From positions 62,001 through 126,000 of the forward strand of contig WGNG01000008.1 of NCBI GenBank assembly GCA_016124675.1: 64,000 bases of DNA, given 5' to 3'. The translations under genes were made by a program, and so were the position numbers. Positions 23,785 to 37,125 of this stretch are shown piece by piece. Below the pieces are notes generated by a model. It did no database searches. It saw nothing but the letters and a program-made list of their open reading frames with translations, and was not told where the DNA came from. Source of the stretch: Alphaproteobacteria bacterium (GTDB lineage Bacteria > Pseudomonadota > Alphaproteobacteria > Caulobacterales > Maricaulaceae). Within the stretch, counting starts at the first letter, position 1, and the number at the start of each line of letters is the position of its first letter.

Positions 23785-24393
23785 TCAGCCCAGCGTCTGG
23801 AAGCTCGCCATCGCCACCAGCATGGGCAGGGAGAGCAGCGTGTTGGTGCGCGAGAACAGCATCGCCGTGCGCGCCGCCTTGGGCTTGGCCTCAGCTTCGG
23901 CCTCCACCAGGCCCAGCGCGATCTTCTGGTTGGGCCAGATCACGAACCAGACATTGAACGCCATGATGAGGGCCAGCCACATGCCGATACCCATGAACAC
24001 AAAGCCCGGCGTGAACCCGACAAGGGCGCCCAGTGTCAGGGTCTCCAGCAGATACCCCTTCACCAGCGCCAGCAGCACGCCGGTCAGCACGGTGAACGCC
24101 GCGCCCCAGCGGAACCAGAACAGGGCGGCGGGCGCGATATGCTTGCCGATGGCGGGTTTGAGCGCATCCGGAATGGACGGCATGGTCGGGATCTGGACGA
24201 AGTTGAAATACCACAACAGGCCGATCCACATGATCCCGGTGACCACATGGGTCCAGCGCAGCAGCGATTCGAGAACTTGCGGCTCGCCCAGGCCCACGCC
24301 CTGTCCGACGATCACGTAGATGAAGAAGTAGGCCAGCGCCAACAGCACTGAAATCAGTACCGTCAGGCGCAGATTGGTCAGAACGTTCGCCAT
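23785..24393 (-). CDS. Urate-oxidase N-terminal-like membrane protein
   Basis: The 202-residue protein has about five membrane helices and matches the membrane part of PuuD (Urate_ox_N). Typical segments are LRWTHVVTGIMWIGLLWYFNFVQ, HIAPAALFWFRWGAAFTVLTG and GIGMWLALIMAFNVWFVIWPNQK. Full-length PuuD carries a C-terminal cytochrome c domain with CXXCH; none is present here, and the gene ends after a last helix. No purine-degradation genes are adjacent. Urate oxidation is therefore not supported; I infer a membrane heme or electron-transfer role at most. The conserved histidines are in the first helices. Confidence 0.75.
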   Translation of the reverse strand: MANVLTNLRLTVLISVLLALAYFFIYVIVGQGVGLGEPQVLESLLRWTHVVTGIMWIGLLWYFNFVQIPTMPSIPDALKPAIGKHIAPAALFWFRWGAAFTVLTGVLLALVKGYLLETLTLGALVGFTPGFVFMGIGMWLALIMAFNVWFVIWPNQKIALGLVEAEAEAKPKAARTAMLFSRTNTLLSLPMLVAMASFQTLG

Positions 24394-24494
24394 GTGAAGC
24401 CCCTGTGTCTGCTGCGAATCACGAGCGCAGCATAAGGCGATGAGCGGTGTGTGCGCCAGCGGCGACGGAGCGGGGTCACATACGGTTGCCCGGG

Positions 24495-25082
24495 TCAGGA
24501 GCGCGCGAACGCGATCAGGGCCTCATAGTCTTCGCGGTCAGCGCGCCGCAGCGCCGCCACATAGGCGCGCCGCACCTCACTGATCTGCTTGAGTGACCCA
24601 CCGCCCCAGGACAAAGCCGGTCTACCCAGACGGCGCAGGACAAGGTCCGCCATCATGCGCGCGTGACGCCCGTTTCCATTCGCGAAAGGGTGAATGAAGA
24701 CCAGCCTGTGGTGTACACGAACAGCGAGTTCGACCGGCTCATAGGTTTCATGCTCAAGCCAGTAGCACGCATCGGCCATGAGCTGGCTCGTCTGGACCCC
24801 GATCATATGGGGGGCAATGCCGATATTCCGCTCCGTGCGGCGATACTGACCGGCCCATGCCCAGACATCGCCGAACATGCGCGTGTGCAGCTGACGCACG
24901 AAGTCCACGGTCATCAGTGCGGGCTTGCGGGCGCGGAACGCCCAGGCAGCACCCTTGTCGATATTGTCCTGCTCGGCGATGTTCAGGTCGGCGCGTGTGG
25001 TCACCCATGTCAGGCGCAGGCCTTCACGCTCGCCGGGCTCAAGCGGGGTTCCATCCTCCGGCTCACGAAACAGGTCGGTCAT
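24495..25082 (-). CDS. Fic/DOC protein, 'mobile mystery protein B'
   Basis: The 195-residue Fic-domain protein has the complete catalytic motif HHRLVFIHPFANGNGRHAR (H-P-F-x-x-G-N-G-R), so it should transfer AMP or a related group from a nucleotide to a target protein. The N-terminal block DGTPLEPGEREGLRLTWVTTRADLN, with GAAWAFR further on, is typical of the family annotated mobile mystery protein B. No inhibitory (S/T)xxxE(G/N) helix is obvious in the protein itself; the partner upstream may control it. Its start overlaps the upstream gene's stop by four bases. The pair acts like a toxin-antitoxin module by organisation; toxicity is not shown. Confidence 0.88.
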   Translation of the reverse strand: MTDLFREPEDGTPLEPGEREGLRLTWVTTRADLNIAEQDNIDKGAAWAFRARKPALMTVDFVRQLHTRMFGDVWAWAGQYRRTERNIGIAPHMIGVQTSQLMADACYWLEHETYEPVELAVRVHHRLVFIHPFANGNGRHARMMADLVLRRLGRPALSWGGGSLKQISEVRRAYVAALRRADREDYEALIAFARS

Positions 25083-25537
25083 CCATCATTCCAGAGGTCA
25101 CGCTCGCGCAGTGTCTGCGAGATGAAAACTGCGATCCGTTGTTCAAGCTCATCATCGGGCGGGGTCTGGCCCTCCATCGCCATGGAATGGGAGACGCTGC
25201 CAATCGCCTCCAGCGCCCGGGCGCGCGCCCGCTCGGCGACCCGGTCTTCCAGCGGCTTGTTCGGGACGAACGCATAGACCAGCTGGCAATCCAGGGCCGC
25301 CGCCGCCTTGCGCAACGTATCCAGCCGGATCGTGCCGGCCGCTTCTGACTGCTCAAGCGAAACCACGCTGGGAGGCTTCACGCTCAGGCGCGCCGCCAGC
25401 TGGGCGCCCGACATGCCAAGGGCGTCGCGGATTGCACGCACCCAGCCCTTTGGCGGAACCGCAAATCTGTCCGCAGGGCGCAGCGGCGCCAGCCTCAAAT
25501 CAAGGGCATGGCGGGCGCGAGCGAGTGATTTCTTCAT
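25079..25537 (-). CDS. HTH protein, 'mobile mystery protein A'
   Basis: The 152-residue protein has an XRE-type helix-turn-helix in the middle (IRDALGMSGAQLAARLSVKPPSVVSLEQSEAAG, about residues 36-68) and a helical C-terminus. The opening RARHALDLRLAPLRPADRFAVPPKGWVRAIR is characteristic of mobile mystery protein A, which is regularly encoded just before the Fic protein. It probably represses its own operon and may neutralise the Fic partner. The upstream region (25538-25625) is unusually AT-rich and holds an inverted repeat likely to be its operator. Confidence 0.85.
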   Translation of the reverse strand: MKKSLARARHALDLRLAPLRPADRFAVPPKGWVRAIRDALGMSGAQLAARLSVKPPSVVSLEQSEAAGTIRLDTLRKAAAALDCQLVYAFVPNKPLEDRVAERARARALEAIGSVSHSMAMEGQTPPDDELEQRIAVFISQTLRERDLWNDG

Positions 25538-25577
25538 AGGCCGAACTCTATCGAAGCTGCATTTATAATTAGGTTGT

Positions 25578-25607
25578 AGCCTATTATTTTCTTAGTCTCA
25601 ATAGGCT
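25578..25607. promoter_or_regulatory. AT-rich promoter region with inverted repeat upstream of the HTH-Fic pair
   Basis: AGCCTATT and AATAGGCT form a perfect 8-bp inverted repeat with a 14-base spacer, about 40-70 bases upstream of the HTH start. On the minus strand TTGAGA (a -35-like hexamer) overlaps one arm. The rest of the 338-bp gap up to tRNA-Asp has no gene that I can support. Confidence 0.5.
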
Positions 25608-25875
25608 GAGGCTTACTTTTATATCGCGCTGAAGAGTCTGGGAGCAGTTGCTTGACGCCTTCTGGCAGGGACCCGCCCAGCCGGTCATGCAATGCCGAGG
25701 CGCCAGGTAGGCCGCGATTCGAACCAAGCCGCATTCGGCCGGCCGGGAGACGCGCGCGGGCGCGCGCCGCCAACATCGCGGCCGCCAATAGCATAAAGGC
25801 CCCGGAGCGGATGCACCGGAGCGAACTCGATCAAACCTGTTGTGAATTTGGGACTCTTGATCAATCAAGAGAAAA

Positions 25876-25952
<77 letters not shown>

Positions 25953-26130
25953 ATCGCTGCGTTCCCGGCGCCATCTCTGGCCGGGAGGCGTTGTCCTAAT
26001 AGGGCGCCGGGCGCCGGTCAAGCCGGTTTAGCGGCCAGACGCAGAGGCGGCGCAGGGCGCCTCTCCCTGCATCGGCATAGGGTGCGCGGCGCGCATGACC
26101 CTACCCGCGCGGCACCGCTAGAGTGATCCC

Positions 26131-27453
26131 ATGAAGACCCGGACCCGGCCCATGATCCTTGCGCTCGTCATCGTGTCGCTCGCCGCCGCCCTGGCGGTCT
26201 GGGTGAGCGCCTGCACGCCGGCGCGCCACCTCATCGTGACCGCAGACCGGCAGGCCCGCGGCCCGGCCGCATCGCCGCCTCTCATGGCGCCCGGATTCGG
26301 GCAGGGCGCCGTGTCGTCGCTGGAGGACTGGCAGGCGCGGCGGACGGCTCTGCTGGCTGCGCTGGACGAGCACATTTACGGCGCGGCGCCGCCGCTTGCC
26401 CGGGTGCGCCTGACGGCGTCCACGCCTGTCGATGCAGCGGCATATCAGGGCGCCGCACGGATCGAACGCCACGCGTTGGAGATGACCCTCGAGGATGGGC
26501 GCACAATCACCCAGACGCTGGCGCTGGTGCTTCCGGCGAACGTCTCCGGACCGTTGCCGGTCATCCTTGTGGCCAGCGATTGCGGCATCGACGCGGCGCT
26601 GGGAACAGAGGTGTTCGGCGCGCCGGACGCCTACCGCCACGGGTATTGCGAGGCAGGCGGGCTTTTAAGCCCCGTGGCGGGCTTCGTGTTCGGCGACCAC
26701 GTGCTCAGTCCGCCTGTCGGCGAGATTCTGGCGCGCGGCTATGCCCTCGCCGTCTGGCATGAAAGCGATATCGGGCCGGATTCGCCCGGCCTGCACGCTG
26801 CGTCACTGGAGCGCCTCGGCCTTGATCCGGACGCGGACGGCCGGCCAGGCCTGATCTCGCTGTGGGCGTGGACGATGAGCCGGGTGGCCGACCATCTCGC
26901 CGCCGATGAGCGGCTGTTGCCCAACGGGCTGGTTCTCTACGGTCATTCGCGCCGCGCCAAGGCGGTGCTGCTCGCCGCGGCGCGCGATCGGCGCTTTGCC
27001 ATGGTGCTGGCGCTGCAACCGGGAACCGGCGGCGGCGCGCTGCACGGCGATGGCGTGGGCGAGCCGGTGGCGTCCATCACGCAAGCCTATCCCCACTGGT
27101 TTTCGCGGCGCTACGCCGAATACGCCGCAGACGAAGCCGCGCTGCCGGTGGACGCCCATCACCTGCTGGCCCTCATCGCGCCGCGCCCGGTCCTGCTGGG
27201 CGGCGCCTGGCGTGACACCTGGTCGGACCCGGCGGGGGCCTTCCGGGCTGCACAGGGCGCCCGGCCCGCCTGGGCATTGTACGCGGCGGACGAACCCTGG
27301 CAGGCGCAGATGGATGCGTTCGAGCCCGCCTCGCGCCTCGCCATCCATATGCGCGGCGGCCTTCACGGCGTACGCGCCAGCGACTGGCGCGCCATTCTGG
27401 ACTTTGCCGACGCGCATCGCGCGCGGCTGGAAGGGGATGCTGGCGGGCAGTGA
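26131..27453 (+). CDS. CE15-like (glucuronoyl-esterase-type) exported hydrolase
   Basis: The 440-residue protein has an N-terminal hydrophobic signal with a lipobox-like VSAC, then an alpha/beta hydrolase resembling carbohydrate esterase family 15. The nucleophile elbow is LYGHSRRAKAVLLAAARD (Ser in GHSR). It is followed by a glycine-rich loop LQPGTGGGAL and by the catalytic-His region LPVDAHHLLALIAPRPVLL. In CE15 enzymes the pattern GHSRxGK uses a Ser-His-Asp/Glu triad to cleave 4-O-methylglucuronate esters joining lignin and xylan. Here Gly-Lys is Ala-Lys. It stands at the edge of the uptake locus at 27-37 kb, convergent with it, so it may supply the same pathway. Confidence 0.78.
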   Translation: MKTRTRPMILALVIVSLAAALAVWVSACTPARHLIVTADRQARGPAASPPLMAPGFGQGAVSSLEDWQARRTALLAALDEHIYGAAPPLARVRLTASTPVDAAAYQGAARIERHALEMTLEDGRTITQTLALVLPANVSGPLPVILVASDCGIDAALGTEVFGAPDAYRHGYCEAGGLLSPVAGFVFGDHVLSPPVGEILARGYALAVWHESDIGPDSPGLHAASLERLGLDPDADGRPGLISLWAWTMSRVADHLAADERLLPNGLVLYGHSRRAKAVLLAAARDRRFAMVLALQPGTGGGALHGDGVGEPVASITQAYPHWFSRRYAEYAADEAALPVDAHHLLALIAPRPVLLGGAWRDTWSDPAGAFRAAQGARPAWALYAADEPWQAQMDAFEPASRLAIHMRGGLHGVRASDWRAILDFADAHRARLEGDAGGQ

Positions 27454-27472
27454 CGGCGTGCGCCTTGCAGCC

Positions 27473-28618
27473 TCAGCCGCCGCTCAACGCCCATTGCTGC
27501 GCCGCGCGCCGCGCGTGATCGCGCACCTGGTCCGGCGAGGTCTCGTCACCGGCCTCCCAGGTGACGGCCACGGTGCGCCAGTCATCGGTGAAGACGGCCT
27601 TGGCGCTGAACCGCAGGCGCGGATTGGTGCGCATCGGCTCCAGCGTCTGAAACACGCCGTCCGCCTCCATGGCCGCCAGCCAGGCGTCGAGGCGGGCGCT
27701 GACCTGCGCGGGCAATTCCTCGGCCTGCGGCAGATAGAGCCGCTCGGCCACAGTGGCGTGAAAATCCACCATCAGCTCCAGATCGCCCGGCGCCAGCGAC
27801 AACGCGTCCAGCAGCGCAAACACCGCGCGCACTTCAGGCTGGCTGCGCCCGCGCCAGTCGCGATTGAGGTCCACGCGGTTTTCGTTCAGCCGCCAGTAGC
27901 CGGCGTCCACCCCGTCCGGATTGAGCACCGGAATGACGATCAGTCCTGACGCCAGCAGCCCGGCCTCGCGCAGGCGCAAGGCTTCATCCACGAAGGCGTC
28001 CAGCGCCCAGGCGCCGGGAATCTCAGGGGGGTGCTGACGGCCGAGGAAAAGCGCCCAACCGGCCCCGTCCGCCATCGGCTCAAGGACCAGCGCGCGCAGG
28101 GCGCGGCCCTCGACGCTAAGTCCGATCGTGCGCCACGGGCCAGGCCAGCGCTGCTCGAGCGCGGCGTAGTCGTCCAGATCATAGAGCGGCTGGGCAGCCA
28201 CCTGCAGCGGCCCGCCGCCCAGGGTAAGCTCGAGGACCGCCCGGCGTCCATCATCGGCCACCGCGACGTGGTCTGCTCCCAGACGCCTCCAGTCCCCTGC
28301 CCCGCTGCGGATCCACGGGGCATAGCGATGGGCGGCGGCCGCATAATTCAGCTCGACCCGGTAACGCCCGGGGGCGCCGTCCAGCGTGAAGGCGTACCAG
28401 GGGCTGGGGTTTATGGGTTCGGCCTCGGGCGCAATGACCAGGGTGAAATGCGCCGCGCCCGCATCGCCCCGGCGGCAGGCACTGTCCGGGGCGCTGTCAT
28501 AACCTGTCTCCAGCCGCACGGCGCCGGACGCGCAACCGGCGCCGGACGGCGCCGTGGCGCAGCCGGCAAACAGGCTCAGGCCGAGGCCGAAGGCGAGCAG
28601 CGCAAGAGGCGTCTTCAT
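27473..28618 (-). CDS. M14-family zinc carboxypeptidase, lipoprotein
   Basis: The 381-residue protein has a lipoprotein signal (MKTPLALLAFGLGLSLFAGC), an N-terminal beta domain of about 130 residues, and an M14 carboxypeptidase domain. Zinc ligands are visible in LGRQHPPEIPG (H-x-x-E) and in LMVDFHATV (His); NPDGVDAGYWRLNENRVDLNRDW is the strongly conserved substrate-binding block, and the catalytic Glu is probably in VAVTWEAGDET. The arrangement resembles cytosolic-carboxypeptidase-type M14 members, but this one is exported. It should remove C-terminal residues from a peptide or peptide-like conjugate in the periplasm. It overlaps the upstream lyase stop by four bases, so it is translationally coupled. 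Confidence 0.85.
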   Translation of the reverse strand: MKTPLALLAFGLGLSLFAGCATAPSGAGCASGAVRLETGYDSAPDSACRRGDAGAAHFTLVIAPEAEPINPSPWYAFTLDGAPGRYRVELNYAAAAHRYAPWIRSGAGDWRRLGADHVAVADDGRRAVLELTLGGGPLQVAAQPLYDLDDYAALEQRWPGPWRTIGLSVEGRALRALVLEPMADGAGWALFLGRQHPPEIPGAWALDAFVDEALRLREAGLLASGLIVIPVLNPDGVDAGYWRLNENRVDLNRDWRGRSQPEVRAVFALLDALSLAPGDLELMVDFHATVAERLYLPQAEELPAQVSARLDAWLAAMEADGVFQTLEPMRTNPRLRFSAKAVFTDDWRTVAVTWEAGDETSPDQVRDHARRAAQQWALSGG

Positions 28619-30036
28619 GGACGCCGGTCACCGTCACGCGCGCGCAAGGCGGCGGCGATCACCGCGTCGGTCTGCTCTGCGGCGAGGCCCACATAGCTGG
28701 CCGGGTCCAGCAGGGCGGCGCGCGCCTCGGCGGACAGCACGGCGGTGACCGCCTCGCTTCCGGCCATGGCATCGGACAGGCTCGCCCCGCTCTCGCGCGC
28801 ATCGCTGGCCAGATCGCGCATCAAGGCCTCCGCCTCCTCGCGCGGCATGTGATCGGACAGGGCGAACACCACGCGCTGCGACAGGATCCAGCCCTGGCTG
28901 CGATCAAGATTGGCCCGCATGCGCGCGGGGAACACCTCGAGCCGGTCAATCAGACGGCTGGCGTCGCGCAATTGCAATTCGATCTCCATGGACAGCTCCT
29001 CCACCTGGGTTATGGGGCGGGAGGTGTTGTCGCGTTCGAAAAAATTGATCACGTCGTCGGCGACCACTTCAGCCTGGCGCGGGATGACCCGGCCGCGGTG
29101 AATGAGCGCCTCGGACAGGGAGGGATTGGTCTTGTGCGGCATGGCGCTGGATCCCACCGCCCCGGCCGGCAGGCTCTCCTCCAGCTCTGCGATATCGGTG
29201 GACTGGAGCAGGAAGACCTCCTGGCCGAACCGGCTCCAGGAACGCGCGATCAGGCCGCACACCAGGGCGTATTCGGCGATGACGTCGCGCGACGAGTGCC
29301 AGTCATCCTCATAGGGCGGCTCAAGACCGAGATGCCCGGCCAGGCGCGCCTCCACCGCCATGGCGCGGGGTCCGAGCCCCAGATAGCTGCCCACCGCGCC
29401 TTTCATGATCGCCGAGCGCTCGATGCGCGCCAGCAGGCCGTGCAGCCGGTCGATGTGGCGGCGGTTCTCGCCGATCCACACGCTCAGCTTCTTGCCAAAG
29501 GTGATGGGCAAGGCGTGCTGGCCCAGCGTGCGCCCGATCATGGGCGTGGCGCGATGCTCGGCGGCCAGGGCGATCAGCTGAAGCTCGATGGTGCGAAGAT
29601 CGTCGATCAGCGCCAGAACGCTGTCCTGCAGCTGGAGCATCAGCGCGGTGTCGTAAATGTCCACCGTGGTGGCGCCGTAATGGAGATAGGAGGCGCTTTC
29701 CTCGTCGAGCGCCCGGCGCAGCACGTTAAGCAGGGCCACCATGCGATGGCGCACAACGGCGTTCTCCGCCTCGATCTCGGCGAGCGGAATGTTCTGCGGC
29801 ACGGCGGCGCGCACGATGGCGTCGGCGGCAGACTGCGGGATTACGCCCTCCTCGGCCTGGGCGCGCGCCAGCGCCGCCTCCACCCGCAGGACCCGGGCGT
29901 TGAGCTGGTCGGGCGTGAAGATCGCCGCGATCTCAAGCGCCGAGAGCGGCGGCGGGGCCTCCCGGGCCAGGGCGGGCCCGCCCGGAACCGTCCAGGCCAG
30001 CGCGGCGGCGGTGACAGCGCGCAGGACCGCGATCAT
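28615..30036 (-). CDS. Exported lyase of the fumarase/PurB/PcaB superfamily
   Basis: The 473-residue protein has the signature GSSAMPHKTNPSLSE of the aspartase/fumarase superfamily, which carries the catalytic Ser loop. HYGATTVDIYDTALMLQ and GRTLGQHALPITFGKKLSVW match the other two conserved regions, closest to PurB and 3-carboxymuconate cycloisomerase (PcaB). The usual His or Trp after GRT is Leu-Gly. Enzymes of this fold cleave C-N or C-O bonds, usually releasing fumarate. Unusually, residues 1-25 form a signal peptide (AVLRAVTAAALAWTVPGGPALA), whereas these enzymes are normally cytoplasmic. The start is fixed by a 4-base overlap with the regulator upstream, and no later Met precedes the conserved PLSALEIAAIF. 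The substrate is unknown. Confidence 0.82.
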   Translation of the reverse strand: MIAVLRAVTAAALAWTVPGGPALAREAPPPLSALEIAAIFTPDQLNARVLRVEAALARAQAEEGVIPQSAADAIVRAAVPQNIPLAEIEAENAVVRHRMVALLNVLRRALDEESASYLHYGATTVDIYDTALMLQLQDSVLALIDDLRTIELQLIALAAEHRATPMIGRTLGQHALPITFGKKLSVWIGENRRHIDRLHGLLARIERSAIMKGAVGSYLGLGPRAMAVEARLAGHLGLEPPYEDDWHSSRDVIAEYALVCGLIARSWSRFGQEVFLLQSTDIAELEESLPAGAVGSSAMPHKTNPSLSEALIHRGRVIPRQAEVVADDVINFFERDNTSRPITQVEELSMEIELQLRDASRLIDRLEVFPARMRANLDRSQGWILSQRVVFALSDHMPREEAEALMRDLASDARESGASLSDAMAGSEAVTAVLSAEARAALLDPASYVGLAAEQTDAVIAAALRARDGDRRP

Positions 30037-31343
30037 GCCGGACCTTTGAGACCGTGGAGGAGCAGGTGGAGATAATCCTCGCTCGCCGAGCGCGGGTCTT
30101 CAGCCAGGCTCCAGCCGGAGATATGGGTCGCTGCGGCCAGGGTGTAGCCGCCGTTCAGGAAGAGGACGCCGGCGAGAATCTCCTCGATCAGCCCGGTGTC
30201 GAGAGCGCGAATCTCTCCGGTCTCCATGCCCTCGGCCAGGGCGTCGCCGAGGCGCAGGGCGATATTGCGCATGCGGGTCTGGTAGCGCCGGCGCCGGGGC
30301 GAGGGAAGCACCGCCGCCATGCCGGGGCGGATCAGCGGCTCCACGCCCGCAGCCTGCCGGTAGATCAGCTCGGCGAGCACGCTGCGCACCCGGTTCAGCG
30401 CGGACAGCTCGGCGGCCTCGGCCAGGCTCAGGGCGCGCTCCACGATCTGCAGGGAACGGTCAAGGCACTGGTCCAGGAACTGCTCCTTGTCCTGGATGTG
30501 ATAATAGAACGCCCCCCGCGACACCCCCAGCGCCGCGGCGACCTCGGCAAGGGACGCGCCGCCGAAACCCTTCTGGTTGAACAGCCGCGAACCGGCCTTG
30601 AGGAAGGCCTCGCGCTTCATCCGGTTGCGTGCGTCCCGGTCAAAGATCGCCAGCGTCTCATCGCTGGCCAGGTCAAGCGGCGCAGGCGCACCGGCCGCCG
30701 CGCCGGCTGCGGCGAGCCCGTGTCCAAGCAGATCAGCCAGCGCCGCCCGCGCCGCGCGGATGTCCCCCTCCTTGCCCGTCCCGCCCTGGCGTTCGGCAAG
30801 CCAGTCCAGCAATTCCAGCACCAGCACGGTGACCGGTTCAGGCCGTCGCACCGGCGCGCCCGCATGCGCGATCCAGCCGGCCACGAGCGCGTTGATCTGA
30901 GCCACCGCTTCGGCCACGCGCCCGGCGATCTGCACCCGCACAGTGTCCGGCAGCGCCTCCAGATCCCGCAGGGCCGCCAGATGCGCCCGCCGCCCGCAGG
31001 CGGCCTCTTCAAGCTGGGCCGCATAGGCTGAGACCAGCGCCTGGATGCGGTCAGCCGGATCGCCCTGCGCAGCCTGCGCGGTGCTGACGGCGTCGTGCAG
31101 GAAGTCGGCGGCGGCGCGGAAGACGGCCTCGGCGAGGTCTTCCTTGCTGGCAAAATAATAGGCGATGCTGGTCTTGGTCAGCCCCAGATCAGCGGCGACA
31201 TCCTCCAGCCGGGTATGGGCGAAACCCTGCTCGTTGAAGCGCTGGGCCGCCGCGGACACGATCGCCCCGAGCTTGCGCTGGCGCTCCTGCTTGCGGGAGA
31301 AAGGCGAGCTGTGATCGGGGAAGTCCGGCCGCAGAACCGACAT
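30033..31343 (-). CDS. Tandem double-TetR transcriptional regulator
   Basis: The 436-residue protein contains two complete TetR-type DNA-binding domains in one chain. HTH 1 is at about residues 21-75 (LEDVAADLGLTKTSIAYYFASKEDL) and HTH 2 at about 238-292 (LAEVAAALGVSRGAFYYHIQDKEQFL). Each is followed by its own helical ligand/dimerisation region, roughly 80-225 and 295-436. Ordinary TetR proteins have about 200 residues and dimerise; this one could bind DNA as a monomer or as a four-headed dimer. The ATG at 31343 follows GGGAGGA. It heads the operon with the exported lyase and carboxypeptidase and is divergent from the TonB receptor, so it probably represses both sides. Confidence 0.9.
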   Translation of the reverse strand: MSVLRPDFPDHSSPFSRKQERQRKLGAIVSAAAQRFNEQGFAHTRLEDVAADLGLTKTSIAYYFASKEDLAEAVFRAAADFLHDAVSTAQAAQGDPADRIQALVSAYAAQLEEAACGRRAHLAALRDLEALPDTVRVQIAGRVAEAVAQINALVAGWIAHAGAPVRRPEPVTVLVLELLDWLAERQGGTGKEGDIRAARAALADLLGHGLAAAGAAAGAPAPLDLASDETLAIFDRDARNRMKREAFLKAGSRLFNQKGFGGASLAEVAAALGVSRGAFYYHIQDKEQFLDQCLDRSLQIVERALSLAEAAELSALNRVRSVLAELIYRQAAGVEPLIRPGMAAVLPSPRRRRYQTRMRNIALRLGDALAEGMETGEIRALDTGLIEEILAGVLFLNGGYTLAAATHISGWSLAEDPRSASEDYLHLLLHGLKGPA

Positions 31344-31441
31344 GGCGGATAGGGTCCTCCCTTCGATTGCACGCCCGGCGCGCCAGCCCGGACTCGCCGA
31401 TACGGCGGCAAAAGGCAACCCGCCGCTTTAAATTTGAACCG

Positions 31442-31464
31442 AGTGTATCTTTTTCGTTGACACT
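31442..31464. promoter_or_regulatory. Candidate operator/promoter for the TonB receptor
   Basis: AGTGT-N13-ACACT is an inverted repeat whose right arm overlaps TTGACA (31457-31462), a perfect -35 hexamer on the plus strand. No good -10 follows at 17 bases (CTCTCT). This is a plausible site for the divergent TetR protein. Confidence 0.35.
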
Positions 31465-31515
31465 GTCCAGCCAACCTTGCTCTCTTCACGAAAACACATA
31501 ACCGGGGAGGGAATG

Positions 31516-34500
31516 ATGTCAATCAGAGCCATTTTGAATTCGGGCGCGGCGCTTGGCGCGCTGGCGCTGGGCGGGGCGGCGCTGGCGCAGGAGCCGGTGA
31601 CGACACCGCAGCCGCAGCCGGCAGCGGAGCGCCAGGCGGATGACGTGATCATCGTCACCGGCACCAATATCCGGGGCGCGCGCATCAATGAGGCGCTCCC
31701 GGTCACGATCCTCACCGAAGCCGACCTGGCCGCCATTGGCGGGGTGGACGGCGAGGACCTGATTCGCGCCCTGCCATCCCAGGGCAGCGTCCAGTTCCGC
31801 AACGACAACAACACCACCAACAATAACGCGCGCGGCGACATCGCCTCCATCAACCTGCGCTCCATCGGATCGAGCGGCACGCTGGTGCTGCTCAACGGAC
31901 GCCGGGTCGTCAATCACCCGTCCACCCAGGCCGAATTGTCCACACCGGTGACCACGGTGAACGTCAATGCCCTGCCGGTGGCAGGCATTTCGAGGGTGGA
32001 AGTGCTCAATGACGGCGCGTCAGCCATCTATGGCAGCGACGCGGTCGCCGGCGTGTTCAACACCATCCTGACCGACAATTTCACCGGGTTTAACGTGCAG
32101 GCGCGTCACCTCTGGGCGACAGGCAACGGCCTCAACGAACAAACCCTGACCGCGCGCGGGGGCGAGGACTTCAACGGCGGGCGCACCAACGTGTCCTTCT
32201 CCGCCGAGTATTCGCGCCGCGAGGGCCTGTTCTCCAGGGAAATCCCGGCGGCGGCCAGCGAAGACATGCGCCCTCTGCTCGTGGGAACCAGTTTTGAAGA
32301 CAGCGCGTCCTTCGACAATCGCGCCACCCAGACGCCCTGGGGTCAGTGGACGCTGAACACCACCTCGTCCACGCGCGTGCGCCGCAACGGGGCGACGCTG
32401 ACCTCGACCGGGGGCGTCTTCCACTTCCAGCCCGACACCTTCCCGGGATGCCTTGGCAATACCGCCAACGCCCTGTCCGTGCCTGGTCTGTGCATCGATG
32501 ATGGCTCCCAGGACCGCGATCTGCGCTATGACGGCGCCACCGAGCGCTCGATCATCTCCGACCGCGACCGGTTCAACGCCTTCGCGTTTCTGAACCACGA
32601 GCTCGACAACGGGATGGAGATGTATGGCGAGCTGGGCTTCTACTGGGCCGAGACCCGCTCCACCAACGAGCCGCGCAACGGTATCGGAGGCACGGAGATT
32701 TCGGTTCCGGCGCAGTATTATTACAACCCGTTCGGTCCGGTGACGTTCTCTGACGGCCGGCCAAACCCCAACCGCCTCTCGGGCCTGACCAACGTCCCCG
32801 CTGGCGGTCTGCCGGTGTTCACCGATGCGGGCCGCTACCGCTTCGTCGATGTCGGCTTCCGCGACATCGTGGTGATCAACTCCCAGTTCCGCGCCCTGGG
32901 CGGCGCGCGCGGCACGTTCGGCCGATCCGGCTGGGATTGGGATTCGGCTGTCCTGTACAACCGCTCCTACGCCGAGGACTCGGTCAACAACTCGATCTCG
33001 CGCAGCCTCTTCCAGCGCGAGCTGCTGAAGGAAACCCCGGACGTCTACAACCTGTTCAACGGGGGCGATCCGGCCAACCCGTCAGTAGGCGACGCCACGG
33101 CGAACCCGCGCAATCTGATCGAGCCGTTCCTGGTGGACGTGGTGCGCGAAAGCACCGCCGAGCTGGCGCTGGCGGACTTCCGGGTCAGCAATGGCGAGGT
33201 GTTCAATGTGCCCGGCGGCGCGGTCGGCATCGCCGCCGGCGTCGAGGCCCGCTATGAGGCCTATGACGAAGACCGCGACGCGCGGGTGGACGGGACCATC
33301 ACCTTTACCGATCTGGTGACCGGCGAGTTCAGCGAAACCGATATCTACGGCACCAGCCCGACGCCGGACTCCAGCGGGTCGCGAGAAGTGCTGGCGGCCT
33401 TCGCCGAAGCATCGATCCCGCTCGTCAGCCCGGACATGAACATCCCCCTCGTCGATACGTTCGACGTCCAGCTCGCCGCCCGATACGAGGAGTATTCCGA
33501 CTTCGGCGGCAGCGGGATCAAGCCGCGCATCGCAGCGGCCTGGACCCCGTTCGGCGGCATCAAGTTCCGCGGCGCCTATTCTCAAGGCTTCCGCGCCCCC
33601 AACCTGATTGTCATCAATGAAGGCGTGGACCGGTCCAACGCCCGCGAAGACAGCTATGCCTGCGAAGCGGGCGCGCGTAACGGGACCTTCGCCAATTTTG
33701 GCGCCTGCACCGGCTTCAGCGAAGGGCGCACCGAGCGCCGTGCGGTCGCCGCCGATATCGGCCCGGAAGACGCGACGAACGTCACCTTTGGCGTGGTGCT
33801 TGAACCGCGCGGCATCACGGGGCCCATGCGCTTCCTCAACGGCCTGACCATCACCGTGGACCGTTGGGAGATCCAGCGCGAGAACGTGGTGGGCGTGTTC
33901 GGCGCCGAGAACCATATCAGCCTGGACTATCTCTTGCGCCTGCAGGGCAGTTCCAACCCCAACGTCGTGCGCGCCGCGCCGACGGTGGACCAGGTCGCCT
34001 TCTACGCGGCCGCCGGCCTTGATCCGGCCGGGGACATCCTGTTCATCCAGGACACCTATGACAACAACGAGAATATCGATGTCGAGGGCACCGATTTCGG
34101 GGTGTATTACAGCTTCACCGATACCCGGCTTGGCGATTTCGACATCAAGGTCAACGCCTCCTACCTCGACACCTATTTCATCGCCCTGTCGCCGGGCGCC
34201 CAGCAAATCCGCGATGCAGTGGACAGCGGCGCCATCTCCAATGAAATCACCGTGTCCCAGGAAGGTGAGATCATCCGTCAGGATGGTCAGCCGGAGTGGC
34301 GGATCGCCGGTGGCGTGACCTGGGCGCATCCCAACGGTTTCGGGGCTGGCGTTCGCGCCGACTATACCAGCGACTTCATCGACACCGGCGTCAGCTTCAA
34401 CGCGGCCGGCGAACCCTTCATCGTCGAGTCCTGGACCTCAACCAATGCCTATGTCGAGTACACGGTCAGCCGTCCGGGCCCGCTTGAAGGCCTGAGGACA

Positions 34501-34626
34501 CGGATCGGGGCCAACAACATCTTTGATGTGGACCCGCCGCTGGCCGACGAAACCAACGGCTATGACGCTGCCTATCACAGCGTGCGCGGCCGCCAGGTTT
34601 ATATCGACCTGCGCCTCGCGTTCTGA
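31516..34626 (+). CDS. TonB-dependent receptor (large, peptide/oligomer-type)
   Basis: The 1036-residue protein has a signal peptide (MSIRAILNSGAALGALALGGAALA), a TonB-box-like VIIVTGTNIRG, and a plug with INLRSIGSSGTLVLLNGRRVV and DGASAIYGSDAVAGVFN. A barrel follows, ending TYIDLRLAF-like (VYIDLRLAF), the classical C-terminal phenylalanine. The size and the RSIGSSGTLVLLNGRR motif fit the large alphaproteobacterial receptors used for nutrients rather than siderophores. Two ATG codons are adjacent (31513 and 31516); the second has better spacing (five bases) from GGAGG. It opens the operon with an exported hydrolase and a DASS transporter. Confidence 0.92.
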   Translation: MSIRAILNSGAALGALALGGAALAQEPVTTPQPQPAAERQADDVIIVTGTNIRGARINEALPVTILTEADLAAIGGVDGEDLIRALPSQGSVQFRNDNNTTNNNARGDIASINLRSIGSSGTLVLLNGRRVVNHPSTQAELSTPVTTVNVNALPVAGISRVEVLNDGASAIYGSDAVAGVFNTILTDNFTGFNVQARHLWATGNGLNEQTLTARGGEDFNGGRTNVSFSAEYSRREGLFSREIPAAASEDMRPLLVGTSFEDSASFDNRATQTPWGQWTLNTTSSTRVRRNGATLTSTGGVFHFQPDTFPGCLGNTANALSVPGLCIDDGSQDRDLRYDGATERSIISDRDRFNAFAFLNHELDNGMEMYGELGFYWAETRSTNEPRNGIGGTEISVPAQYYYNPFGPVTFSDGRPNPNRLSGLTNVPAGGLPVFTDAGRYRFVDVGFRDIVVINSQFRALGGARGTFGRSGWDWDSAVLYNRSYAEDSVNNSISRSLFQRELLKETPDVYNLFNGGDPANPSVGDATANPRNLIEPFLVDVVRESTAELALADFRVSNGEVFNVPGGAVGIAAGVEARYEAYDEDRDARVDGTITFTDLVTGEFSETDIYGTSPTPDSSGSREVLAAFAEASIPLVSPDMNIPLVDTFDVQLAARYEEYSDFGGSGIKPRIAAAWTPFGGIKFRGAYSQGFRAPNLIVINEGVDRSNAREDSYACEAGARNGTFANFGACTGFSEGRTERRAVAADIGPEDATNVTFGVVLEPRGITGPMRFLNGLTITVDRWEIQRENVVGVFGAENHISLDYLLRLQGSSNPNVVRAAPTVDQVAFYAAAGLDPAGDILFIQDTYDNNENIDVEGTDFGVYYSFTDTRLGDFDIKVNASYLDTYFIALSPGAQQIRDAVDSGAISNEITVSQEGEIIRQDGQPEWRIAGGVTWAHPNGFGAGVRADYTSDFIDTGVSFNAAGEPFIVESWTSTNAYVEYTVSRPGPLEGLRTRIGANNIFDVDPPLADETNGYDAAYHSVRGRQVYIDLRLAF

Positions 34627-34640
34627 TCAAGCGGGATCCA

Positions 34641-34669
34641 GGGGCGCCGCCTGCCACAGGCGGCGCCCC
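34641..34669 (+). terminator. Strong hairpin between receptor and hydrolase, possible attenuator
   Basis: A perfect 12-bp stem (GGGGCGCCGCCT with its complement) with a GCCAC loop ends nine bases before the hydrolase ATG. There is no T-run (GATTGCGT follows), so it may protect the receptor mRNA end or lower downstream expression rather than terminate. Confidence 0.5.
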
Positions 34670-34678
34670 GATTGCGTC

Positions 34679-35545
34679 ATGCGCACCGCCCTCACCCTCA
34701 TCCTGACCGCGTTCGCGGTGCTGACCGCCCCCGCCTCCAGCCAGGCGCTGCGTACGGGCAGTTTCGTGTTCGACGCCTGGCAGGGACCGCCCCTGCGCGT
34801 GTACTTCGTCGAACCCGCAGACGGGCCAATGGACGGTGCGCCCGTGGTGATCGTGCTGCACGGCGTGGACCGCAACGCCGATGTCTACGCCCGCAACTGG
34901 CAGGAGCTGGCGGCTGTCTACGGCCTAAGGGTCTATGCGCCGGAATTCACCAACGACGCCTTCCCCGGCGCCGCCATGTACAATCTCGGCGGCTGGGGCA
35001 CGGACGGGCCATTCGCGTTCGCCGCCTTCGAGCCCTTGTTCGATGTGATCGCCGCGCGCGGCGGAGATGCGGCGGGCTATCACCTGTTCGGTCACTCGGC
35101 TGGAGCGCAGGTCGCCCATCGCGCCGTATTGCTGGAGCCGCTGCCGCGCCTCATCACCGCCTACGCCGCCAATGCCGGCTGGTATGCCCTGCCCCATGAG
35201 GGCGTGGCCTGGCCCTATGGCCTCAGCGGCGCCGGCATCGAAGAGGCGGCGGTGCGCGCCTGGCTGGAAGCCCCGCTGATGATTTTGCTGGGCGACCAGG
35301 ACACCGATCCGCGCCACCGCCACCTGCGGCGCACGCCAGACGCCGCCGCCCAGGGGCCCCACCGCTATGCCAGGGGCGCCTTTTTCGCCAGCGTCGGCCG
35401 GGCGCAGGCTGAAGCGCTCGGCGCTGACTTCAACTGGCGCGTCGGGTCGGTTCCCGGCGTCGCCCATGACAATGCCGGCATGGCGCAGGCGGCGGCGGCG
35501 CTCATCGCGCAATATCCCGACGGCTTCACCGCGCCCGCCGACTAA
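34679..35545 (+). CDS. Exported alpha/beta hydrolase (PHB-depolymerase-like)
   Basis: The 288-residue protein has a signal peptide (MRTALTLILTAFAVLTAPASSQA) and an alpha/beta hydrolase fold. The oxyanion strand is VVIVLHGVDRNADVYARNW and the nucleophile elbow is LFGHSAGAQVAHR (Ser in GHSAG). A probable acidic residue lies in LLGDQDTDPRHRHLRRTP, and the His is in VPGVAHDNAGM. The overall style is that of polyhydroxybutyrate-depolymerase/feruloyl-esterase-like proteins. It should act in the periplasm on an ester or amide imported by the receptor encoded just before it. No clear Shine-Dalgarno sequence precedes the ATG; the hairpin described above lies there instead. Confidence 0.8.
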   Translation: MRTALTLILTAFAVLTAPASSQALRTGSFVFDAWQGPPLRVYFVEPADGPMDGAPVVIVLHGVDRNADVYARNWQELAAVYGLRVYAPEFTNDAFPGAAMYNLGGWGTDGPFAFAAFEPLFDVIAARGGDAAGYHLFGHSAGAQVAHRAVLLEPLPRLITAYAANAGWYALPHEGVAWPYGLSGAGIEEAAVRAWLEAPLMILLGDQDTDPRHRHLRRTPDAAAQGPHRYARGAFFASVGRAQAEALGADFNWRVGSVPGVAHDNAGMAQAAAALIAQYPDGFTAPAD

Positions 35546-35563
35546 TCGAGATCAGGACACGTC

Positions 35564-37027
35564 ATGACCGCATCCGAACCTGCAGCCGGTCCGGCCCTGT
35601 ACCAGCGCATCGGCCTGGTCCTCGGACCGGTGGCTGCGGGGCTTGTGGCGACTGTTTTCGCGCCCGAAGGCCTGCCGCGCGAGGCCGTTCTGGTGGCCGC
35701 CATCGGCGTGCTGATGGCGATCTGGTGGGCGACCGAGGCCATTCCGGTAGCCGTCACCGCCTTCCTGCCCCTGGTCGCGCTGCCCATTCTTGACGTGGCG
35801 CCGCTGAGCAGTATGGCCGCGCCCTATGCCAATCCGATCATCTACCTGTTTTTCGGCGGCTTCGTGATCGCCCTGGCCATCGAGCGCTGCGGCCTGCACC
35901 GGCGCATTGCGCTGAGCGTGTTCGCGCTCTCCGGCGCCGATGCGCGTGGCCTCGTCGCCGGGTTCATGATCGCGGCGGCGTTCGTGAGCATGTGGATATC
36001 CAACACCTCCACGACGCTGATGCTCCTGCCCATCGCGGTTTCGGTGGTGACTGTCATCGCCGAAACCATGCCCACGCTGTCCTTGCGTCAGCGCAATCAT
36101 TTCGGCATCTCGCTGCTGCTGGGACTGGCCTATGGCGCGACGCTGGGCGGGATGGCCACGCTGGTGGGTACGCCGCCCAACGCCTTCATGGCCGGCTTCA
36201 TGGCTGATAACTATGGCGTGGAGATCGATTTCGCGCGCTGGATGCTGGTGGGCCTGCCGGTCACGCTGGTGCTGCTGCCGCTGGCCTGGCTGCTGCTGAC
36301 CCGGATCATGTTCCCGATCGACTTCAAGGCTTCGCCCGAAACGCTGCGCTACATCAAGTCCATGCGCACCAGCCTGGGCTCCATGAGCAAGGCCGAGGTG
36401 CGCACCGCCGGCCTGTTCCTGTTTCTGGTGGCCGGCTGGCTCGGGCGCGGCTGGCTGGAAGGCCTGCCCTTCGTGGGCGATCTCAGCGACACCGGCGTGG
36501 CGATGATCGCCGCAATGGCGGCCTTCCTCATCCCGTCAGGCAAGAAGGGCGAGGCGCTGATGACCTGGGACAGCATGTCCCGCCTGCCCTGGGGCGTGCT
36601 GATCCTGTTCGGCGGCGGCCTTGCGCTGGCCGCGGCGGTGAGCAGCTCGGGCCTCGCCTTGTGGCTGGGCCAGCAGCTATCCGGAATCGGGACCGTCAAC
36701 GCCGTGCTGCTGGTGGTCGCCGCCACGGCGCTGGTGATCTTCCTGACCGAGCTGACCAGCAATCTGGCCACCACCGCCACCTTCCTGCCGGTCATTGCCG
36801 CCATCGGGGTGGAGACCGGACAGGACCCGCTCATCTATGTCATTCCCGTCACCCTGGCGGCGAGCTGCGCCTTCATGCTGCCGGTGGCCACGCCGCCCAA
36901 CGCGGTGGTGTTCAGCTCCGGACTGGTGGCGATCCCGACCATGGCCCGGGTAGGCCTGGTGCTCAACATCATCGCGGTGGCTGTGCTCAGCGTGGTGGCG
37001 CTGGTGATCGCGCCGGCCGTGTTCTGA
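35564..37027 (+). CDS. DASS/SLC13-family dicarboxylate transporter
   Basis: The 487-residue inner-membrane protein has about eleven helices and the two S-N-T type substrate/sodium hairpins of the divalent-anion:sodium symporter family: MWISNTSTTLMLLPI (about residue 147) and TELTSNLATTATFLPV (about residue 395). Each is followed by a TPPNA stretch (VGTPPNAF, ATPPNAVVF), as in VcINDY. These transporters take up succinate, fumarate, malate or sulfate with sodium. It is the last gene of the receptor operon, 18 bases after the hydrolase. Next to a lyase of the fumarate-releasing superfamily, a C4-dicarboxylate is the most economical substrate. Confidence 0.92.
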   Translation: MTASEPAAGPALYQRIGLVLGPVAAGLVATVFAPEGLPREAVLVAAIGVLMAIWWATEAIPVAVTAFLPLVALPILDVAPLSSMAAPYANPIIYLFFGGFVIALAIERCGLHRRIALSVFALSGADARGLVAGFMIAAAFVSMWISNTSTTLMLLPIAVSVVTVIAETMPTLSLRQRNHFGISLLLGLAYGATLGGMATLVGTPPNAFMAGFMADNYGVEIDFARWMLVGLPVTLVLLPLAWLLLTRIMFPIDFKASPETLRYIKSMRTSLGSMSKAEVRTAGLFLFLVAGWLGRGWLEGLPFVGDLSDTGVAMIAAMAAFLIPSGKKGEALMTWDSMSRLPWGVLILFGGGLALAAAVSSSGLALWLGQQLSGIGTVNAVLLVVAATALVIFLTELTSNLATTATFLPVIAAIGVETGQDPLIYVIPVTLAASCAFMLPVATPPNAVVFSSGLVAIPTMARVGLVLNIIAVAVLSVVALVIAPAVF

Positions 37028-37049
37028 GGCCGGGTTGAATGCGTTTTAA

Positions 37050-37125
37050 TGGTGGGCGGTGACGGGCTCGAACCGCCGACCCTCTCGGTGTAAACGAGAT
37101 GCTCTACCAACTGAGCTAACCGCCC
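37050..37125 (-). tRNA. tRNA-Val (TAC)
   Basis: 76 bases with encoded CCA. The acceptor is GGGCGGT, the D arm is AGCTCAGTTGGTAGAGC, the anticodon stem is TCTCG/CGAGA with loop TTTACAC (anticodon TAC), and the T loop is TTCGAGC. Confidence 0.97.

Follow-up and report, generated by a model that had tools for sequence, protein, structure and literature searches.

A conserved gene set with a predicted exported lyase of the fumarase superfamily, probably for extracytoplasmic uptake and digestion of aspartate-type polymers

The window, a stretch of 64,000 nucleotides from an alphaproteobacterium of the Maricaulaceae, carries two divergent gene arms. On the reverse strand lie genes for an M14 lipoprotein metallocarboxypeptidase (positions 27473–28618; Pfam AstE_AspA_cat and Peptidase_M14), a predicted exported lyase of the adenylosuccinate lyase/fumarase superfamily (28615–30036; Lyase_1, 149.8 bits, and ADSL_C) and a double TetR regulator (30033–31418; two TetR_N stretches). 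On the forward strand, a conserved divergent-promoter element (31433–31462) is followed by genes for a TonB-dependent outer-membrane receptor (31477–34626, 1049 aa as listed; Plug and TonB barrel), a predicted exported alpha/beta hydrolase of the PahZ1 family (34679–35545; similarity to 6ve6) and a DASS/SLC13 importer (35564–37027; TIGR00785 and Na_sulph_symp). Open reading frames and Pfam matches place all six genes at the positions and in the families given by the earlier note, and the four-base overlaps between the M14 and lyase genes (28615–28618) and between the lyase and double TetR genes (30033–30036) are exact. Judged by eye, translation probably starts slightly inside the listed frames for the double TetR (about 31343) and the TonB receptor (about 31513), and the ATG at 34679 is the likely start of the hydrolase; the lyase leader, the hydrolase leader and the M14 lipobox are also by-eye readings of the window sequence. 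A glucuronoyl-esterase-like lipoprotein gene (26131–27453) was rejected as part of the locus, being matched in only one (G1032) of 25 related loci. In G1033 its place is occupied by an unclassified 440-aa ORF.

The window lyase belongs to Lyase_1 by domain match and by its SSxMPxKxNP loop. Of the 18 NCBIfam models that it matches (PurB, CMLE, XcbD, AspA, FumC, ArgH and others), none reaches its cut-off; the best score is 312.4 against a cut-off of 600, and the model nearest to its cut-off is PurB (282 against 326.2). XcbD, ASL and CMLE give 312, 301 and 270 bits, compared with 56 bits for aspartase, and CMLE is among the closest solved structures. In a tree, the lyase falls within a clade of 26 members with a support of 1.0; a protein of 32% identity (L010) lies outside this clade and was left out of the 26 before counting. 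The loop residues S296, S297, P300, K302, N304 and P305 are invariant in all 26 lyases, H97 and H119 are likewise intact, and the active-site region diverges at positions 98, 171, 281 and 337–340. Position 171 corresponds to the His of GRTHxxHA, which we take to be the general acid in enzymes of the adenylosuccinate lyase type. This His is absent from the clade, which has Leu (24 members) or Ile (2) instead, as compared with His in 42 of 47 outgroup proteins and Leu or Ile in none; CMLE aligns with a Trp. Because an aliphatic residue replaces the His of most relatives, the leaving group of the reaction probably needs no such acid.

A hydrophobic N-terminal leader was detected by score in 24 of the 26 clade lyases and in 0 of the 47 outgroup lyases; in the two left, G954 (slightly under the threshold) and G867, it was recognised by eye. 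The lyase seems to be exported, which is unusual for a fumarate-type lyase, and the earlier requirement that it should not be cytoplasmic agrees with these predicted leaders in the window and in its relatives. A plasmid origin was rejected: all 547 plasmid records that match the lyase are below 60% identity, and among the best 15 of the 547 none exceeds 37%.

The hydrolase matches 6ve6 with an E-value of 1.2e-56 over residues 26–276, as well as LpqC (3d0k, 5e-36) and 9o7u (6.8e-34), and its only Pfam matches, Abhydrolase_6 and Esterase_PHB, are sub-threshold. Similarity covers the whole catalytic domain, including a Ser/Asp/His triad assigned by eye (S140, D208 and H263) that is invariant among 12 aligned relatives. 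By sequence, the hydrolase is a PahZ1-family protein (poly(aspartic acid) hydrolase-1). Enzymes of this type, examined in one study on a thermally made polymer, cleave beta-aspartyl amide bonds, and the enzyme of KP-2 prefers the L-Asp to D-Asp junction (PMC4456602).

The M14 lipoprotein scores 27.8 bits against PF00246 (cut-off 21.6) and has the HxxE...H zinc site and catalytic Glu of a metallocarboxypeptidase, with H196xxE199, N252-R253, H287 and E355 invariant in three aligned proteins; among solved structures it is closest to bacterial M14 peptidases, presumably of the CCP type. The TonB receptor is 73–87% identical in 14 of 25 related loci. The DASS protein passes TIGR00785 (284.8 bits; NCBI cut-off 198.6) and matches the solved SLC13A2, SLC13A5 and sulfate carrier SLC13A1 with 244, 239 and 225 bits, and is probably a sodium-coupled importer of anions with C4-dicarboxylates as cargo. 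The promoter element could be aligned in 16 loci and, more weakly, in G025 and G1045. A search of 12 genomes returned exactly one match per genome, located at this locus in every case, and zero matches for the reversed control. The element is probably the operator of the double TetR, and with a single site in each of the 12 genomes a wider regulon was rejected.

To assess the neighbourhood, we compared the 26 lyase loci, which come from 26 genomes. DASS is present in 24, the TonB receptor and M14 in 22 each, the hydrolase in 20 and the double TetR in 19 (tblastn). Gene order within the six-gene set is rearranged between loci, and any further ORF cluster is confined to at most 6 of the 26. The two loci without DASS (G779 and G836) each contain an SDF carrier. 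Co-conservation of lyase, receptor and transporter, on which the earlier note had made its pathway depend, is thus borne out. Its wider recurring set of lyase, M14, double TetR, TonB receptor and DASS also reappears, except that six loci of the Erythrobacter group have a LysR gene and no double TetR; an amidohydrolase gene (six loci) and a D-amino-acid-dehydrogenase-like gene (five) are added. Since the six-gene set recurs in relatives, chance does not explain the arrangement. Four genomes (G594, G836, G867 and G898) have PahZ1 elsewhere than beside the lyase, and in two with the lyase (G779 and G954) a threshold as lenient as E≤1e-10 yielded no PahZ1 match. Of the 137 genomes in the window's family, 19 have a PahZ1 match scoring at least 340 bits, a threshold chosen after the scores were known (E≤1e-30 gives 26 genomes). 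These 19 include every one of the 17 that carry the lyase, and the co-occurrence has a Fisher p of 8e-20 with kinship ignored.

We also fetched 20 PahZ1 regions without an adjoining lyase, five from the nine family genomes that lack the lyase and 15 from 37 other genomes, four of these 15 carrying the lyase elsewhere. DASS occurs in 24/26 lyase loci as compared with 3/20 PahZ1 regions (p=9e-8), or 3/16 (p=2e-6) once the four from lyase-carrying genomes are excluded, in a comparison that ignores kinship, sets regions centred on different genes side by side and includes 6 of 46 shorter than 19 kb. Three genomes retain the locus without the lyase. In G1033 most of the lyase gene is lost and DASS has an in-frame stop, and M14, double TetR, TonB and PahZ1 are open frames; G034 and G183 retain DASS though the lyase is absent. 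The lyase is therefore an optional module, an add-on to a PahZ1–TonB core.

Other PahZ1 genes without the lyase have informative neighbours, each a single case: PahZ2 (451 bits to 7ljh) adjoining in G756, a beta-aspartyl-peptidase-like gene in G163, an aspartase-like gene in G727, and DctA in G799 and G845 (655 and 645 bits; cut-off 513). Asp-related neighbours are absent from most of the 20 regions. The aspartase-like protein lies above the cut-off of a model that class II fumarase passes too, and no leader was seen in it; at the position of a His in the G000 fumarase it carries Gln, which we count as a point in common with aspartate ammonia-lyase. The presence of a cytosolic aspartase was rejected as a test: NF008909 matched once in each of 22 genomes, of which 15 have the lyase and seven lack it, and the match in G000 is presumably a class II fumarase, judging by its RTHLMDA motif, so that the test does not discriminate. 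Together with the PahZ1 kinship of the hydrolase, these neighbours point to a beta-aspartyl or similar (e.g. beta-malyl) oligomer as the most likely substrate.

From these comparisons, the window's bacterium carries a conserved gene set that probably serves the extracytoplasmic uptake and digestion of aspartate-type polymers. On balance, we favour substrate-specific uptake and digestion of beta-linked aspartyl-type polymers or oligomers, possibly with D-Asp. The TonB receptor would bring oligomers into the periplasm, where the PahZ1-type hydrolase would cut beta-aspartyl amide bonds inside the chain, leaving the ends to be trimmed by the M14 lipoprotein. The exported lyase would then eliminate the succinyl (aspartyl) unit, probably freeing fumarate in the periplasm for DASS, and this carrier, or SDF-family carriers in some relatives, would deliver the C4 acid to the citric acid cycle. 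Both divergent arms may be governed by the double TetR from the single site seen between them. As elimination from an amide is chemically hard, the lyase would need a free or N-terminal unit as its target, or else a different bond; most simply, it may be an aspartase-like ammonia-lyase or an end-unit lyase. Of the scheme first drawn for the locus, entry through the outer membrane, trimming by the hydrolase and the carboxypeptidase, and dicarboxylate import fit; the changes concern the substrate, the optional lyase, and the regulator and added genes of the Erythrobacter group. Points against the favoured reading are the lyase genomes with PahZ1 at a distance or with no PahZ1 match, the greater similarity of the lyase to XcbD, ASL and CMLE than to aspartase, the retention of DASS without the lyase in G034 and G183, the many PahZ1 regions that have no Asp-related neighbour, and the fumarase-type model match of the G727 protein. 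More tentatively, an exported fumarase/ASL member, perhaps the first, may complete the depolymerisation of an amino-acid polymer by beta-elimination to periplasmic fumarate, with a dedicated carrier importing the C4 acid.

Polymalate and beta-poly(Asp) share one backbone, the former having an ester in place of the amide, and it is conceivable, though rather unlikely, that the polymer is poly(beta-L-malate) or a malyl ester. The hydrolase would then act as an esterase, in keeping with its relative LpqC, a putative PHB depolymerase, and the lyase would produce fumarate by eliminating a carboxylate at an O-acyl malate terminus. CMLE handles a carboxylate bond, and the Leu/Ile of the lyase stands, like the Trp of CMLE, where most relatives have His. 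Bacteria using polymalate are reported (PMC9210645). On the other hand, the known activity of PahZ1 is on amides (PMC4456602), and some loci have D-amino-acid-dehydrogenase-like, beta-aspartyl-peptidase-like or aspartase-like genes nearby, which point to amino acids. The earlier note's candidate, an aminopolycarboxylate, would be of the iminodisuccinate or EDDS type or else an N-succinyl conjugate, its C–N amine bond being split by the lyase. EDDS lyase and iminodisuccinate lyase, of the same superfamily, split such bonds and provide precedents, and the D-amino-acid genes of the Erythrobacter group would fit the products. Such a substrate has no amide for PahZ1 or M14 to cut, although both rank among the most frequent partners (20/26 and 22/26), and the His that could protonate an amine is missing from the lyase. 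We consider this substrate quite improbable: the characterised relative of the hydrolase, PahZ1, is a beta-aspartyl hydrolase (PMC4456602), which makes an aspartyl-type polymer the likelier substrate.

Aged protein or peptide with isoaspartyl and D-Asp residues, the lyase acting on its degradation products, would suit the junction preference of the KP-2 enzyme (PMC4456602) and the D-amino-acid-dehydrogenase-like and amidohydrolase genes added in the Erythrobacter group; M14 is the sole conserved peptidase of the set, and we give this origin little credence. A similarly low probability attaches to an exported lyase that makes no fumarate and is a cycloisomerase-like or binding protein with the ASL fold. 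The kinship with CMLE and the active-site differences would agree with this, whereas the SS loop, H97 and H119 remain intact in 26/26 and C4-dicarboxylate-type carriers are linked to the lyase loci.

To our knowledge, the fumarase superfamily is regarded as cytoplasmic or organellar and polyaspartate is not well known in nature, and a conserved exported lyase clade with its own active-site signature was unexpected. Among the papers listed from open-licence literature, we found nothing relevant on an aspartase or fumarase that is periplasmic or secreted, and no description of a locus of this make-up for PahZ. The locus provides a genetic frame for PahZ1-type poly(Asp) hydrolases, comprising receptor, one-site regulator, importer and accessory enzymes, so that their natural substrate becomes open to experimental test; the eliminative route, if true, would also indicate the class of compound on which they naturally act.

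Compared with the PahZ1/PahZ2 systems of Sphingomonas sp. KT-1 and Pedobacter sp. KP-2, the window has a clear PahZ1 relative with an export-type leader and again a second metallopeptidase, but this is M14 instead of PahZ2; the PahZ1 gene is not paired with PahZ2 but neighbours TonB and DASS, and the receptor, DASS, double TetR and exported lyase are additions. With the adenylosuccinate lyase/CMLE/XcbD branch the lyase shares the fold family, the catalytic SS loop, H97 and H119, and it differs in its export-type leader, its separate clade, Leu/Ile at 171, D281 for E and NTSR at 337–340. Aspartate ammonia-lyase is only weakly similar (55.7 bits). TonB-linked polysaccharide utilisation loci show parallel roles (receptor, endo-enzyme, exo-enzyme, lyase, importer and dedicated regulator), an analogy only: they deal with another class of substrate, and neither their enzyme families nor the fold of their lyases is related. 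The eliminative route proposed here for an amino-acid polymer would resemble the action of polysaccharide lyases on sugars.

The six genes described in the earlier note, together with the exact four-base overlaps, are all present in the window, which belongs to a genome of 2.88 Mb (G000). ORFs of at least 130 aa were clustered across windows around 26 lyases, comprising the relatives recovered from our genome samples and the Erythrobacter locus L009. The commonest clusters were the lyase (26 windows), the DASS transporter (24), the TonB receptor (22), the M14 carboxypeptidase (22), the PahZ1-type hydrolase (20; PahZ1 is poly(aspartic acid) hydrolase-1) and the double TetR regulator (17, with two further loci, G1025 and G1032, detected by tblastn). 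These were followed by a LysR regulator (6), an amidohydrolase lipoprotein (6; Amidohydro_3), tentatively labelled a D-aminoacylase, a D-amino-acid-dehydrogenase-like gene (5), an SDF carrier (3) and one other cluster (3); both the amidohydrolase and the dehydrogenase-like gene score under the NCBIfam cut-offs. The locus is one unit, and its genes are shuffled in order between groups. The usual TonB and M14 genes are missing from the G143 and G1024 loci, the G954 locus has the double TetR gene and a different TonB receptor without PahZ1, and in G867 only DASS and an AbgT-type carrier lie near the lyase. The AbgT-family gene adjoins both (L095, 12301-13890; 655 bits, cut-off 754), and the clustering of the 26 windows gave no conserved cluster for such a carrier in the other lyase loci.

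An element of approximately 40 bases in the divergent double TetR promoter is conserved in 16 loci and is weaker in G025 and G1045. When 12 genomes were scanned with a 30-base pattern of this element (31433-31462 in the window), allowing up to three mismatches, each of the 12 gave exactly one match, located at the locus, and the reversed control pattern gave no match in the same scan. The G143 locus, missing the usual TonB gene, has the site between the double TetR and PahZ1 genes. The element is most probably the operator of the double TetR.

Close relatives of the lyase (28615-30036, minus strand) have a patchy spread across genomes. In overlapping samples, they were found in 6 of 200 genomes of the order (at least 49% identity, own genome counted), in 2 of 385 of the class beyond a clear score gap (638 bits versus 342 for the next match, own genome counted), in 17/137 genomes from the family to which the window belongs and in 7 of 397 of the family of G343, which clusters with L009 in the tree and which we therefore term, by inference, the Erythrobacter group. 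No additional close relative was found in the phylum sample of 200 genomes. When analysed in one tree together with 47 outgroup lyases, the 26 form a single clade (support 1.0), with identities of at least 41.7% inside the clade and at most 39.1% to outsiders. By a simple score, 24/26 clade lyases have a hydrophobic leader ahead of the domain, versus 0/47 outsiders, the exceptions in the clade being G954 (1.63, threshold 1.8) and G867, in which the leader sits upstream of the ORF start used. Several leaders have lipoprotein-like signals when inspected by eye (LVLAAC, FVLAAC and others). The clade is rare, separate and apparently exported.

The locus is flanked by tRNA-Asp (25876-25952) and tRNA-Val (37050-37125, 22 bases beyond the DASS stop), which delimit 25876-37125, and this position together with the patchy distribution suggests that it is an island. 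Its GC content is inside the window's range, the minimum 2-kb step being 0.631 at 24001-26000. Near tRNA-Asp, a Fic protein and an HTH regulator (24495-25537, four-base overlap) exceed the cut-offs for mobile mystery proteins B and A. A lipoprotein with a glucuronoyl-esterase-like domain (26131-27453; PF22244, 71 bits) is convergent with the M14 gene and has a match among related loci only in G1032 (77%).

Pfam and NCBIfam profiles place the lyase in Lyase_1/ADSL_C, and it reaches the cut-off of none of the 18 NCBIfam models that it matched. By score, XcbD ranks first (312 bits), ahead of an adenylosuccinate lyase subfamily (301), PurB (282) and CMLE (270), and an aspartase subfamily profile gives 56 bits. 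All 26 clade lyases keep the SS loop, H97 and H119 unchanged, and NTSR at 337-340 is nearly invariant. Position 281 is Asp throughout the clade versus Glu in all 47 outsiders. At position 171 the clade has Leu (24/26) or Ile (2/26); His is found there in 42/47 outsiders and in 3c8t, and Trp in CMLE 1re5. In adenylosuccinate lyase this His acts as the general acid, and its absence from the clade suggests a leaving group that would not need such an acid, for example of the ammonia or carboxylate type.

The hydrolase (34679-35545, plus strand) matches PahZ1 structures 6ve6 (E=1.2e-56) and 9o7u (E=6.8e-34), as well as LpqC 3d0k (E=5e-36). Pedobacter KP-2 PahZ1 cuts beta-Asp amide bonds, favours the L-Asp to D-Asp junction and has a trimer as its minimum substrate (PMC4456602). 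The extra genes of the Erythrobacter group, namely those for the amidohydrolase and the D-amino-acid-dehydrogenase-like protein, would suit D-Asp. The strongest rival to a beta-Asp polymer is beta-polymalate, ranked top because its backbone is that of beta-poly(Asp) with an ester replacing the amide. Bacteria that degrade polymalate have been reported (PMC9210645). Concerning PahZ1 itself, matches at E<=1e-30 occur in 26/137 genomes of the window's family, and 19 genomes reach at least 340 bits, including all 17 with the lyase; G1033 and G163 make up the rest, and the G163 copy has internal stops. Five of the seven lyase genomes in the Erythrobacter-group sample have PahZ1, adjacent to the lyase only in G343, and none was detected in the lyase genomes G779 and G954 at E<=1e-10.

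Twenty PahZ1 windows without the lyase were compared, four of them from lyase genomes. DASS (35564-37027, plus strand) is present in 24/26 lyase loci versus 3/20 of these windows (p=9e-8), or 3/16 once the four are removed (p=2e-6); both p values ignore kinship, and the windows of the two sets have different genes at their centres. An SDF carrier is present in both lyase loci that lack DASS, G779 and G836. In G1033 (L167) the lyase gene is a short remnant, most of it lost, and DASS has an in-frame stop, which may be a sequencing error, while M14, double TetR, TonB and PahZ1 are all open frames; this pattern comes from one genome. Double TetR, TonB and DASS are retained without the lyase in G1033, G034 and G183, with M14 also in G1033 and G034, and the DASS genes of G034 and G183 count against a strict lyase-DASS link. 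TonB and M14 share the PahZ1 window in G799, G845 and G749, with DctA close by in the first two (655 and 645 bits; cut-off 513).

Asp-related neighbours of PahZ1 are selected cases and give no rate, since none was obvious in the remaining windows of the 20. A relative of PahZ2, the second poly(Asp) hydrolase, overlaps PahZ1 in G756 (7ljh, 451 bits), and the G163 window (L168) has a beta-aspartyl-peptidase-like lipoprotein (267 bits, under cut-off). Genes resembling 3-hydroxy-D-aspartate aldolase (98 bits, far under the cut-off of 690) lie near PahZ1 in G163 and G848 (L180), genomes from two different families, and may point to hydroxy-aspartate in the substrate. An aspartase-like protein in G727 passes NF008909 (613 bits, cut-off 510), with aspA (530) and fumC (423) both under cut-off; because a G000 protein reading as a fumarase also passes NF008909 (524 bits), the aspartase label rests on aspA exceeding fumC and on the motif Gln.

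The analysis establishes the gene set and its conservation, the leader, the family assignments and the lone promoter site. In the mechanism we propose, the TonB receptor would bring in oligomers, PahZ1 would make internal cuts, M14 would trim the ends, the lyase would release fumarate and DASS would import it. Among the open-licence papers listed, none described a gene locus for PahZ1, itself little covered there, and none was relevant to an exported aspartase or fumarase; as only this literature was searched, its silence is weak evidence of absence. We read the locus as a substrate-specific uptake locus around a PahZ1-type hydrolase, in which the new element is the apparently exported superfamily lyase.
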